From contig CAKZPT010000079.1 in assembly GCA_937139365.1 (NCBI GenBank), forward strand, positions 1-64,000: a DNA stretch of 64,000 nt, written 5' to 3'. The translations under genes and the position numbers were made by a program. The notes beneath the pieces were generated by a model. It was given only the letters and a program-made list of their open reading frames with translations, searched no databases and was not told the origin of the DNA. Of the stretch, positions 1 to 23,202 are shown one piece after another (position 1 is the stretch's first letter; every line of letters begins with the position of its first letter). Source of the DNA: an uncultured bacterium (GTDB lineage Bacteria > Verrucomicrobiota > Kiritimatiellia > PWTM01).

Positions 1-253
1 CATGGTGCCAGGTGGCCGTGCCGTCCGGCTTGATGCGCGGCGTTCTCATGGCTCGCCGCCTCCCGGAGCCGACGCCCCATGCGCCAGCCCCACACCACCC
101 AGAAGGCGCGAGCCGCGAGTTTTTCCGTAGAGGCGGTAAATGGCTGAAATTCTCGATGGACGGAGCCGGACGCTTGGAACGGCACATGCCGGGCACTGGG
201 CAGATAGATGAGGGCGCGCTTGCCGTCACACCGAAGCGGCGTACACTACGGCC
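1..253. other. non-coding stretch upstream of the his/trp leader
   Basis: No convincing gene is seen. The 81-codon ORF at 12-257 has no recognisable protein features and overlaps a promoter candidate. The stretch contains CACATGCCGGGCACTGGG (183-200), an imperfect copy (2 mismatches in 18) of 273-290 inside the leader ORF. It also begins with GGTGCCAGG, the reverse complement of CCTGGCACC found in that leader. Confidence 0.5.
220..247 (+). promoter_or_regulatory. candidate sigma70-type promoter for the his/trp operon
   Basis: A -35-like TTGCCG (220-225), a 16-nt spacer and a -10-like TACACT (242-247) are visible. The -10 ends 6 nt before the ATG at 254, so the predicted start site falls on or beside the A of the leader start codon. 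If it is used, the leader peptide would be translated from a leaderless transcript. Confidence 0.5.
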
Positions 254-310
254 ATGAGCACGCGGAATAATTCACATGCCTGGCACCGGGAGAACGGGGG
301 ATCGCGGTAG
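254..310 (+). CDS. putative 18-codon leader peptide of the his/trp operon
   Basis: This short ORF encodes MSTRNNSHAWHRENGGSR. It contains the codons CAT-GCC-TGG-CAC (His-Ala-Trp-His) immediately before a pair of mutually exclusive RNA hairpins and a rho-independent terminator. The first genes behind it make histidine (hisF, hisI) and tryptophan (trpE, trpG). There is no Shine-Dalgarno sequence; a candidate -10 box 6 nt upstream suggests leaderless translation. Two His and one Trp codon are few for an attenuator, and CCTGGCACC also occurs as a short dispersed motif, so the codon content could be chance. The UAG stop lies inside the inner hairpin stem. That is the geometry expected if a ribosome reaching the stop blocks the antiterminator. 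Confidence 0.45.
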   Translation: MSTRNNSHAWHRENGGSR

Positions 311-356
311 GCCGAAGCCTATGCTGCGCGACTCCCCGGGTTACTCCGGGGTTTTT
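295..356 (+). promoter_or_regulatory. transcription attenuator: antiterminator versus terminator
   Basis: Two competing structures can be drawn. The antiterminator pairs CGGGGGATCGCG (295-306) with CGCGACTCCCCG (327-338): 11 pairs including one G-U, and one A-C mismatch. It encloses a perfect small hairpin TAGGC-CGAA-GCCTA (308-321). The terminator pairs CCCCGG (334-339) with CCGGGG (346-351) and is followed by five T residues. The two share 334-338, so only one can form. A ribosome stalled at the His/Trp codons (275-286) would leave most of 295-306 free to pair. A ribosome finishing at the UAG (308-310) would cover it and favour termination. Confidence 0.6.
334..356 (+). terminator. rho-independent terminator of the attenuator
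   Basis: A six-bp GC-only stem CCCCGG/CCGGGG with a six-base GTTACT loop is followed directly by TTTTT (352-356), 30 nt before the hisF start codon. Confidence 0.75.
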
Positions 357-385: not shown

Positions 386-1144
386 ATGCTGGCCAAGCGA
401 ATCATACCGTGCCTCGATGTGACGGGCGGACGGGTCGTCAAGGGCGTGAAGTTCGTGGAGCTTCGCGACGCCGGCGATCCCGTGGAATGCGCCCGCGCTT
501 ACGAGGCACAGGGCGCCGACGAACTTGCTTTCCTCGACATCACGGCCTCCCACGAGGGACGGGACACCATGGTGGCGATCGTGCAGTCGGTCGCCGAATG
601 CGTCTTCATGCCACTGACCGTGGGAGGAGGGATCCGCAACGTCTCGGACATCCGCCGCATGCTGCAGGCCGGAGCGGACAAGGTGTCGGTCAACACCGCC
701 GCCGTGGAGCGGCCAGAACTCATCTCCGAAGGGGCGCGGCGGTTCGGAAGTCAGTGCATTGTGCTGGCGATCGACGCCCGTCGCCGCGGTCCGGGCCAGT
801 GGGAGGTCTTCACCCATGGCGGACGACGGCCAACGGGTGTGGACGCCGTGGAATGGGCGCGCGAAGGCGTTCGCCGTGGCGCCGGCGAGATCCTCCTGAC
901 CAGCATGGACTGCGACGGAACCCGCACGGGATACGATCTCGAACTGACGCGGTCGATCGCCGACGCGGTCCCGGTACCGATCATCGCGTCGGGCGGCGCC
1001 GGCACCCTCGAGCATCTGGTCGATGCGGTGACCATCGGCCGAGCGGACGCCGTGCTGGCAGCCTCGATTTTTCACTTCGGCGAGTTCAGCATTCCCGTGG
1101 CCAAGGCCCATTTGCGAGCGCGCGGCGTGGAGGTCCGACTGTGA
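386..1144 (+). CDS. hisF: imidazole glycerol phosphate synthase, cyclase subunit HisF
   Basis: With HisH-supplied ammonia, HisF converts PRFAR to imidazole glycerol phosphate and AICAR in histidine synthesis. The 252-residue protein is full length for this (beta/alpha)8 barrel. It begins [12 protein letters not shown] with the catalytic Asp11, and has the second catalytic Asp at 130 (LAIDAR). The phosphate-binding GGGIRN (residues 80-85) and ASGGAG loops are present. A GGAG at 375-378 lies 7 nt before the ATG. It is the first structural gene behind the attenuator, with hisI 19 bp downstream. hisH, its glutaminase partner, is not in the window. Confidence 0.97.
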
Positions 1145-1163: not shown

Positions 1164-1574
1164 ATGAACGACTTGGAGGAAGGCTCCGCGCTTCGTCTCG
1201 ATTTCGGCAAATTGAGCCAGGCGGCGGCCTGTGGCGGATTGATTCCCGTCGCTGTGCAGGACGCCGACTCCGGCCAAGTGCTGCTGGTCGCCTACACGAA
1301 CGAAGCCGCGTTCCGCGCCGCCCTCGCCGCGCGGCGCCTCATCTTATGGAGCACATCCCGGAACGAACTGTGGGAGAAGGGACGCACCTCGGGCGATACG
1401 TTCGACCTGGTCGAGGTGCGGGTCAACTGTGAGCAAAATTCCCTTCTCTACCGCGTTCGCGCTCGGCGCGGCGGGATCTGCCACACCCGCGGCGCCGACG
1501 GCCGGCCGCGGACGACGTGCTTTTACCGCCGCCTCAACCTCGACACCGGCACGCTAGACATGGTGGAACCGTGA
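1164..1574 (+). CDS. hisI: phosphoribosyl-AMP cyclohydrolase HisI, variant metal site
   Basis: HisI opens the adenine ring of phosphoribosyl-AMP in histidine synthesis. The 136-residue single-domain protein shows the LWSTSRNELWEKGRTSG substrate motif. The three zinc cysteines are at positions 89 (NCEQN), 106 (ICHT) and 119 (TTCFY). The family's usual Mg-binding DCDxD is here N88-C89-E90-Q91-N92, so all three aspartates are replaced while the zinc cysteines remain. There is no fused HisE domain. The gene overlaps trpE by 4 bp (GTGA), implying translational coupling. Activity is likely given the intact Cys set, but the metal chemistry may differ. Confidence 0.9.
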   Translation: MNDLEEGSALRLDFGKLSQAAACGGLIPVAVQDADSGQVLLVAYTNEAAFRAALAARRLILWSTSRNELWEKGRTSGDTFDLVEVRVNCEQNSLLYRVRARRGGICHTRGADGRPRTTCFYRRLNLDTGTLDMVEP

Positions 1575-3123
1575 GCACGGCCACCAACGCAACGCGATTT
1601 CGAATCCATCCCGACCGGGCGGAGTTTCGCCGCCGCGCGGACGCGGGGAACCTCATTCCCGTCTGGGTCGAGGTTTTCGCCGACCAGGAAACGCCGGTCT
1701 CCGCCTACGAACGCGTTCGGGCCGTGCTGCGCCAAAGGGATCGGGCCTCGCACACGTTTCTTCTCGAAAGCGTGGAGGGCGGCGAACGGGTGGGACGGTA
1801 TTCGTTCATCGGCGGCAAGCCGAGGGCGATCCTCCGAGCCTGGGGCCGGCGGGTCGTGGTGCAACACGAAGATGGCTCCCGCTCGACGATCCCCGACGCC
1901 GATCCGCTCGATGCGTTGCGCGCCTTCATGTCCCGGTACCGGCCAGTGCCGGACGACCGCCTGCCGCCCTTCATCGGCGGCGCGGTCGGTTTCCTCGGCT
2001 ACGACGCGGTCGCCGTGTTCGAACCGACCGTGCCGGTCCGCCACGACCGCGCGTTACGGGCGCCGGACATGGTGTTCATGATCACGGACACCCTGCTGGT
2101 GTTCGACCGTGTACGGCATACCCTCAGGATCATCGCGAACGCGTGGATCCGAGACGGCGAAGATCCCGACGCAGCCTACGACGGGGCCGTGCGCGCCATC
2201 GAGGCGATGGCCTCCGCGCTGCTGGCGCCGCTGCCGCACGAACTCACCGATGTCCATCCGCCGGTCGAGGGGCTCACCCCGTGCTCGGCCATGGCGCGCG
2301 CAGAGTTCGAGGCGGCGGTGCGCCGCGCGCAGGACTACATCCGCGCCGGCGACGTGATTCAGGTGGTCCTCTCCCAGCGCGTCGAGGTGGATTTTTACGG
2401 CGATTCAGTAGACGTCTACCGCGCCTTGCGCTGGGTCAACCCATCGCCCTACATGTTCCTGCTGGACCTGGGCGACAGCGCGATGGTCGGCAGCTCGCCG
2501 GAGACCCACGTGCGGCTCGATCACGGCCACGCCGAGATCCGCCCCATCGCCGGCACGCGGCCGCGGTCCGAAGACCCCTTCGAGGATGAACGCCTTGGGA
2601 GGGAGTTGTTGAGCGACCCGAAGGAACGCGCAGAACACATCATGCTGGTGGACCTGGCTCGGAACGACCTCGGACGGGTTTGCACCTCCGGTTCGGTGAG
2701 GGTGCCGGAGCTGATGGTCATCGAGCGCTACAGCCACGTGATGCACATTGTCTCCGAGGTCGTCGGCCAGCTCGCCCCGGGCCGGGACGCCTACGACCTG
2801 ATGCGGGCCACGTTCCCCGCCGGCACCGTGAGCGGAGCGCCGAAGATCCGCGCGATGCAGATCATCGCCGAGCTCGAGGCCTCGCGTCGCGGGCCGTACG
2901 CGGGCGCAGTGGCGTATTTTAGCTTCGACGGCAACCTCGACTCGTGCATCACGATCCGGACCCTCATCCTCGACGAGGGACGGGCCTACGTGCAGGCCGG
3001 CGCCGGCGTGGTCGCCGACTCCGATCCGGGCCGTGAGTACGAGGAAACCTGCAACAAGGCCCGGGCGCTGTTGTATGCCCTGGCGATGTCGCGCGCCTTC
3101 CGGTCGGGAAGGCCTCCCCCCGC

Positions 3124-3127
<4 letters not shown>
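1571..3127 (+). CDS. trpE: anthranilate synthase component I
   Basis: TrpE makes anthranilate from chorismate, using ammonia passed from TrpG, as the first step of tryptophan synthesis. The start is taken as GTG 1571, which overlaps the hisI stop as GTGA; the longer ORF from 1517 lies inside hisI. The protein has 518 residues. The LLES motif at residues 64-67 is part of the tryptophan feedback site of the family. The chorismate-binding half shows [28 protein letters not shown] and the [11 protein letters not shown] signature. TrpE rather than PabB is favoured by LLES and the length. It is coupled to trpG by an ATGA overlap. Confidence 0.95.
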
Positions 3128-3687
<560 letters not shown>

Positions 3688-3705: not shown

Positions 3706-4116
3706 ATGGTCCGAATGTCCATTGTCTACCGCGGTGACTTGCGCTGCGAAGCGGTTCACGGCCCGTCGGGCTCGCGCGTCGAAACGGACGCCCCGGCGGA
3801 CAACGGCGGCCGGGCCGAGCGTTTCTCGCCGACCGACCTGGTCGCCGCCGCGCTCGGCAGTTGCATGATGACGATCCTCGGCCTGCGCGCTCGGGAACGC
3901 GGCTGGGACCTGGCTGGCATGACCGCCGAGATCGAAAAGGAGATGGGCGGCCCGCCGCGTCAGATCCGGCGCATCGGAGTACGGTTGAATATGCCCATCG
4001 CGCTGGCGCCGGCCGACCGGGCCGAGGTCGAAGCGCTCGCGAAGGCCTGCCCCGTCGCGCGCAGCTTGCATCCCGCACTGGAAGCCGACATCCGCTTCGT
4101 CTGGCCGGAGAGGTGA
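3706..4116 (+). CDS. OsmC/Ohr-family protein
   Basis: OsmC/Ohr proteins reduce organic hydroperoxides with a pair of cysteines. The 136-residue protein has both: Cys53 in ALGSCMM and Cys115 in KACPVARSL. It also carries the family motif FSPTDLVAAALGSC. The start at 3706 is supported by AGGAG just upstream. The gene follows trpG by 18 bp on the same strand and is probably the last gene of the his/trp transcript, though it has no evident link to amino-acid synthesis. The next gene is convergent, 17 bp away. Confidence 0.85.
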   Translation: MVRMSIVYRGDLRCEAVHGPSGSRVETDAPADNGGRAERFSPTDLVAAALGSCMMTILGLRARERGWDLAGMTAEIEKEMGGPPRQIRRIGVRLNMPIALAPADRAEVEALAKACPVARSLHPALEADIRFVWPER

Positions 4117-22222: not shown

Positions 22223-23202
22223 GCAACCTCGTCCGGGACACGGCCATCGCGTTGCGCTTTGCGCCCCACTCCAACTCCTCGCGGTTCGTCGTGTGGTTCG
22301 GGCGGGAGCAGGGCCGCTTCGTAACCCTGATCCGGGGCGCCCAGCGGCCAAAAAGTTTTTTTCTCGGCCAATGTGACCTCTTCGCCACCAGCGACATCGT
22401 CTTCTACCGCCATCCCCGCCACCCGGTGCACCTGGCACGGGAATGCGCGCTCGTCCGGGCGCGGCCCGTCCTGCGCCGCGACTGGCGCGCCGCCGCGGCC
22501 GCGTCGTACGCCTCCGACTTGCTGCAGCGCAGTCTCCCTCGCGAGGAGCCGCACCCCCGCCTTTATAACGTGGTCTCCGACTGGCTCGACACCCTCGGTT
22601 CGCCGCGTCCGGTGGAGCCGGATCTGTGCTGGTTCGAGCTAGCGTACCTTGCGGCGGAAGGACTGGCCCCGCGCCTCCAGGGTTGCGTCGCCTGCGGCGC
22701 GGCGCTCGACGCCGGCCGGCCCGCGCGGTTTGTCACGGGCCGGGGCGGGTTCCTCTGCGGCCGCTGCGACACCGGCCCGGCTGGCTCTCGCACATTTCGC
22801 CTCGGGCCCGCCGACCTGGCCGTCCTGCGCTCGTGGCAGGCGGCGGAACGTCCCCGCCGGCTGGACGCCTCCGGCGTTCCGCCCGAGACCGTGCGGCGGA
22901 TTGCCGATCTGCTCGGGGATTTCCTGCGGCACCACCTCAACCTCCCCTTGCCCAGCCGCGACCTTGCCTTCGAGATCATCCGGTTCCGACCCCGTCGTGC
23001 CGCGTTGTCGCCAAACGCCGGCGCGACTAAGATCGCCATGGGTGGGCGAGTGGCGGAATCGGCAGACGCGCAAGACTTAGGATCTTGTGGAGTCATCCGT
23101 GGGGGTTCGAGTCCCCCCTCGCCCACCAACCCTGTCGCGGAGAACATGCGCCCAACGGAGACCGCCGATGACCGGTACGACCCGGATCAGCCTGTCGCTT
23201 GA
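22219..23202 (+). CDS. recO: DNA repair protein RecO, frame running through tRNA-Leu
   Basis: RecO loads RecA with RecR in gap repair. ATG 22219 overlaps the ybeY stop. The N-terminal OB-fold ([33 protein letters not shown]) and a four-cysteine zinc motif (CVACG and CGRCD) are clear. The recognisable protein ends near [26 protein letters not shown]. No stop follows in this frame: it reads through the entire tRNA-Leu gene and into nikR, ending at 23202 (327 residues). Another frame has TAA at about 23028, just before the tRNA, so a late frameshift or a lost stop is possible. The true C terminus is therefore uncertain. Confidence 0.75.
23044..23128 (+). tRNA. tRNA-Leu (anticodon UAG), CCA encoded
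   Basis: A complete 85-nt cloverleaf is visible. The acceptor is GGGCGAG/CTCGCCC with A73 and encoded CCA (23126-23128). The anticodon stem is CAAGA/TCTTG with loop CTTAGGA, anticodon TAG at 23078-23080. A class II variable arm follows, and the T arm is GGGGG-TTCGAGT-CCCCC. It lies wholly inside the open recO frame on the same strand and 40 bp before nikR. Confidence 0.95.

Follow-up and report, generated by a model that had tools for sequence, protein, structure and literature searches.

Can a single leader peptide govern an operon by sensing two amino acids made by separate pathways? The question is raised by a short open reading frame (ORF) and a terminator in front of hisF in an uncultured Kiritimatiellia bacterium. 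They lie near the 5' end of the stretch of 64,000 nucleotides that was analysed as a whole, called the window here, whose 5' start is one terminus of contig C79 in its genome. A preliminary description had read positions 254-356 as a possible composite His/Trp attenuator of a hybrid hisF-hisI-trpE-trpG operon, and had suggested that one leader may sense both amino acids because the operon makes both. The features concerned, 5' to 3', are as follows.

220-225, forward strand: predicted -35 element TTGCCG, located by scanning for the consensus; most of 33 leaders have TTGnnn upstream, spaced by 16-17 nt
242-247, forward strand: predicted -10 element TACACT, from which the transcript would start no more than a few nucleotides from the leader ATG, making the ORF leaderless
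254-310, forward strand: leader ORF MSTRNNSHAWHRENGGSR, read from the sequence, with counterparts in 26 other genomes
275-286, forward strand: putative regulatory codons His-Ala-Trp-His (CAT GCC TGG CAC); W and H both occur in 27/27 leaders of his-containing operons
295-306, forward strand: antiterminator 5' arm (region 2), from predicted folds, immediately 5' of the leader stop
308-321, forward strand: inner tetraloop hairpin TAGGC-CGAA-GCCTA, from sequence and fold; a hairpin is likewise enclosed in most related leaders
327-338, forward strand: antiterminator 3' arm (region 3), from predicted folds, overlapping the terminator 5' arm at 334-338
334-356, forward strand: intrinsic terminator CCCCGG-GTTACT-CCGGGG-TTTTT, with CCCCGG/CCGGGG and the T-run conserved in the leader alignment
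386-1144, forward strand: hisF (Pfam His_biosynth, 3.1e-86), with orthologues in relatives
1164-1574, forward strand: hisI, phosphoribosyl-AMP cyclohydrolase (Pfam PRA-CH, 7.5e-21)
1571-3127, forward strand: trpE, with a GTG start and a 4-nt overlap with hisI (Pfam Anth_synt_I_N and Chorismate_bind)
3124-3687, forward strand: trpG, with a 4-nt overlap with trpE (Pfam GATase, 5e-59)

The ORF, the antiterminator, the tetraloop hairpin and the terminator that shares 334-338 with the antiterminator were all found where the preliminary description had placed them, and Pfam identifies all four genes of the hybrid operon. The leader MSTRNNSHAWHRENGGSR, present in a single copy in the window's genome, runs for 18 codons from an ATG at 254 to a TAG stop at 308-310. 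It holds just three regulatory codons, as had been cautioned, and only one of them is for Trp: His CAT at 275-277, Trp TGG at 281-283 and His CAC at 284-286. Segments CGGGGGATCGCG (295-306) and CGCGACTCCCCG (327-338) form 11 pairs with one mismatch, in a stem that encloses the tetraloop hairpin. A second caution, that CCTGGCACC is also a short dispersed motif, did not hold up: three copies in 64 kb compare with 0.95 expected, 7 of 100 shuffled sequences reach three, and at this chance level of occurrence the motif was rejected as a dispersed repeat.

Close 3' of trpG on the same strand lies a gene for an OsmC-like protein (3706-4116), which may share the transcript; a tRNA gene at 23044-23125 is the sole Rfam match in the window. 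TrpF (PF00697) has no match in the window's genome (G000, 97% complete) and is present in the 28 other genomes searched, genus mates included; in G000 the gene may have been lost or may fall in a gap of the assembly. With TrpF found in 28 of 29 genomes, a bifunctional HisA/TrpF was rejected as the cause of joint control.

It is highly likely, judging from the sequences and the modelled folds, that the leader is a ribosome-mediated transcription attenuator sensing both Trp and His. Transcription would begin at the leader AUG or no more than a few nucleotides away. Because region 2 lies directly before the stop codon, a ribosome that translates rapidly and reaches the stop would cover region 2 (295-306), the terminator at 334-356 would form, and transcription would stop before hisF. 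A shortage of charged tRNA-Trp or tRNA-His would instead stall the ribosome at the His-Ala-Trp-His codons and leave region 2 free to pair with 327-338; the terminator would then not form, and hisF-hisI-trpE-trpG would be transcribed. Since a stall at either kind of codon would suffice, the leader would follow OR logic.

An alignment of leaders from orthologous operons had been proposed as a check; it was run, and relatives retain a leader ORF with both codon types, as well as the terminator and a competing antiterminator. The search for HisF covered 58 relatives first and 346 class genomes afterwards, and 92 loci were taken from it with their operons; a search for TrpE in the same class supplied 60 further trpE loci. 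A leader ORF and terminator precede hisF-hisI, or hisI, joined to trpE-trpG in 27 Kiritimatiellia genomes from eight families, the window's included. The operons comprise 23 of the type hisF-hisI-trpE-trpG, a few of which (for example in G096, whose contig stops inside trpE, and G311) have other sequence between the his and trp genes, and four of the type hisI-trpE-trpG. Both Trp and His occur in 27/27 leaders, with 50 W and 43 H among 420 residues; because ORFs were chosen by W+H density, the presence of W in all leaders is partly by construction, that of W and H together is not. The order of the two differs between leaders, as in HAWH, WWHH, HGWHPW, WHWH and HWRW. Examples before hisF-hisI-trpE-trpG are MKTARRHWWPAWRAFGPAPVHP, MATAWHQGWWLPRGVPRGR, MKTQHGWHPWREAGS, MKNFWWHHGEDGAIL, MKNKYWWHNVGKAGV, MLNRWWHHVSEGV and MHVWTHWRSRGG; the four before hisI-trpE-trpG are MRLSFRHWRWRQQI, MQFVGHWRGVDRRAG, MFTNASNWHHFPQGPVRR and MYKTSAQWHHFPQGPGRR. 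Exact matches to public contigs place leader MNTQHGWHSWREAGS on CAITZM010000055.1 (uncultured Lentisphaerae), MVTSWHWHDEGVSAGA on CALMUP010000019.1 (uncultured Verrucomicrobia) and MKFSWWHHYTQMGVLNRT on JAMLJG010000022.1 (Kiritimatiellia bacterium). The retention of both codon types in 27 leaders supports the earlier suggestion, in which the leader would sense both amino acids because their genes are joined in one operon; the regulatory output itself we infer.

The leader is not a fixed companion of the operon. Some 12-14 genomes share the gene order but lack a leader 5' of hisF, so attenuation would have been gained or lost often. Among close relatives in family f7, all with the order hisF-hisI-trpE-trpG, G041 and G305 differ from G307, G014 and G309 in leader presence, which suggests a recent gain or loss.

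Folding, with ribosome footprint and promoter both modelled, was consistent with competition between the two structures. The minimum-energy fold of 250-360 includes the antiterminator (-47.9 kcal/mol, z = -2.3, with 4 of 200 shuffles as stable). When a modelled ribosome occupies the Trp codon and the RNA is truncated 5' of the terminator 3' arm, the energy is -26.9 against a shuffle mean of -18.3, and 1 of 150 shuffles is as low. As to the 1:2 pause hairpin that in trpL/hisL-type attenuators keeps polymerase and ribosome in step, a 5' hairpin is present in the free fold of the window's leader. The stall model, with the same truncation and the ribosome on a W or an H codon, was applied to all 27 leaders. 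In 26 of them, under W and H stalls alike, the terminator 5' arm paired with a segment that lies either at the stop or between it and the regulatory codons, and the predicted antiterminator pairing for both stalls in 26/27 was at least 0.66; the G308 leader alone among the 27 has no predicted antiterminator. A ribosome at the stop codon covers this segment in the model, and in the full RNA the terminator has a probability of 0.64-1.0. Over 31 leaders, antiterminator pairing averages 0.88 versus 0.59 in dinucleotide shuffles (the highest of 150 shuffled sets reaches 0.76), and fold stability is above the shuffle median in 30. Compensating pair changes (U-A, C-G, G-C) occur beside an invariant CCCC core. 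In the complete RNA at equilibrium the terminator usually wins despite a stalled ribosome, so the model relies on the antiterminator forming first during transcription, as known attenuators likewise do. With clustered cognate codons in a leader ORF, an intrinsic terminator before the first gene and, in the modelled folds of 26/27, an antiterminator that excludes it, the leader very probably works as a trpL/hisL-type attenuator whose specificity combines Trp and His.

Six further leaders, MKNYWWNNLKKP, MKNRFEQKNWRGWRRGP, MNLKNCWRNSIPGSNRW, MNLKKCWRISGPGSERW, MNLKNCWRILIPGPDRW and MNPLRWREHMTGRWQR, precede trpE operons that lack his genes. They come from genomes G024, G036 (the source of MKNYWWNNLKKP), G048, G316, G317 and G318, whose loci are, in the order of the genomes, L251, L246, L236, L239, L237 and L240. 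W is present in 6/6 and H in 1/6, the exception being G318; by their codons these leaders are putative Trp-only attenuators in the same class, mostly without His. Their existence bears on the possibility that every leader senses Trp alone, with the operon following Trp and the His codons incidental, shaping RNA structure or stall context. Such a reading would agree with the presence of W in every leader, trp-only operons included, with the occurrence in the class of trpE alone under attenuation, and with hisD operons, before which no His-only leader was found in the 30 loci scanned. It is nevertheless unlikely. H is found in 27/27 leaders with a his gene in the operon versus 1/6 without (Fisher p = 2.5e-5, ignoring phylogeny, a value that overstates independence and serves as a guide only, since the six trp-only genomes represent about three lineages); W/H order and context vary while both persist; and in silico, antitermination by H stalls equals that by W stalls.

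On this comparison of sequences, the occurrence of His codons in the leader follows whether the operon has his genes, a relation that goes beyond what the preliminary description had envisaged. In the TrpE tree, a trp-only clade with W-only leaders (G316, G048, G317) is sister to the clade holding G025 and G314, whose hisI-trpE-trpG operons have WHH leaders. Within family f17, G047, with his genes, has WWHN, versus WWNN in G036, which has none; their trpE genes lie on different branches. Among genomes with this type of hisF and trpE absent downstream on the stretch read, no such leader was found before the hisF operon.

In 70% of 33 leaders, against 3.5% of shuffled sequences, a promoter of the form TTGnnn - 16/17 nt - TAnnnT, with a score of at least 8, ends 6-10 nt 5' of the start codon. 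This model puts the expected transcript start at the leader AUG or a few nucleotides from it at most, and with the promoter so close to most leader starts the leader ORF is probably leaderless. In Sinorhizobium meliloti, the leaderless RNA of trpLE(G) has its 5' end at the ATG of a 14-aa leader ORF that precedes trpE(G), and in addition to attenuation this trpL gives rise to an RNA and a peptide that act in trans (PMC7298713). That system differs from ours in sensing Trp only and in having trpE(G) without his genes. By analogy, the present ORF might act otherwise, for instance through reinitiation of translation, or through a short RNA or peptide acting in trans, and termination would then be secondary. 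We regard this as very improbable: there is no sign of a trans role here, and the conserved mutually exclusive pairing, together with the position of region 2 at the stop codon, fits classical attenuation. Least credible is a constitutive or otherwise regulated terminator behind a chance ORF with functionless W and H codons, a reading that draws on the mere three regulatory codons of the window alone and on the ease with which hairpins form in GC-rich sequence, but that is largely refuted, since the 27 genomes share ORF, both codons, terminator and antiterminator and the promoter placement is conserved.

In textbook cases a leader peptide responds to a single amino acid, or to several of one connected pathway: hisL of Salmonella and Escherichia coli carries a run of seven His codons only, the ilvGMEDA leader senses Ile, Val and Leu, and the thr leader senses Thr and Ile. 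The preliminary description compared the leader with the trp and his leaders of enterobacteria, each sensing one amino acid, a comparison that omits the ilvGMEDA and thr leaders. The composite attenuator proposed here resembles E. coli trpL in its short leader ORF with a Trp codon, its stalled-ribosome antiterminator and its terminator upstream of trpE, and resembles hisL in that His codons in a leader ORF govern his genes via the same alternative pairing. However, trpL senses Trp only, from an ordinary 5' UTR, and hisL senses His only; neither Rfam Trp_leader (RF00513) nor His_leader (RF00514) matches at the gathering threshold in the window, or up to E = 5 in 200-420, and the T-box riboswitch has no Rfam match in either. 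With the ilvGMEDA and thr leaders it has in common one leader for more than one amino acid, but those amino acids belong to one connected pathway, whereas here two separate pathways meet in one operon. Both the ilvGMEDA and thr operons are listed as attenuated (PMC1183508).

One leader appears, then, to sense two amino acids of separate pathways. The mechanism is known, of the trpL/hisL type, and the dual specificity looks new; neither a composite His/Trp leader nor a description of attenuation in Kiritimatiellia was found in the searchable literature. We think it likely that these leaders are leaderless OR-gate attenuators for two separate-pathway amino acids, in which His codons are gained or lost with his genes in the trp operon, and that they occur in a class without described attenuation. 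Leader codon content that changes with operon content offers a natural series for how regulatory codons follow operon rearrangement, and ribosome-mediated attenuation would thereby be extended to Kiritimatiellia.

A covariance model of the leaders, R1, ranked the 27 training leaders top among 346 genomes of the class. The next three matches in class genomes, all read, were rejected as ordinary gene ends with terminators. In 388 genomes of the phylum, the 20 out-of-class loci that were read were all ordinary, with no convincing leader, an absence that is a weak negative because R1 is dominated by the terminator. Weak R1 matches at gene ends, L325 and L327, encode a hydrophobic stretch and an Arg-rich tail before the stop codon, followed by a terminator; rejected as leaders, they resemble sorting-signal C-termini.
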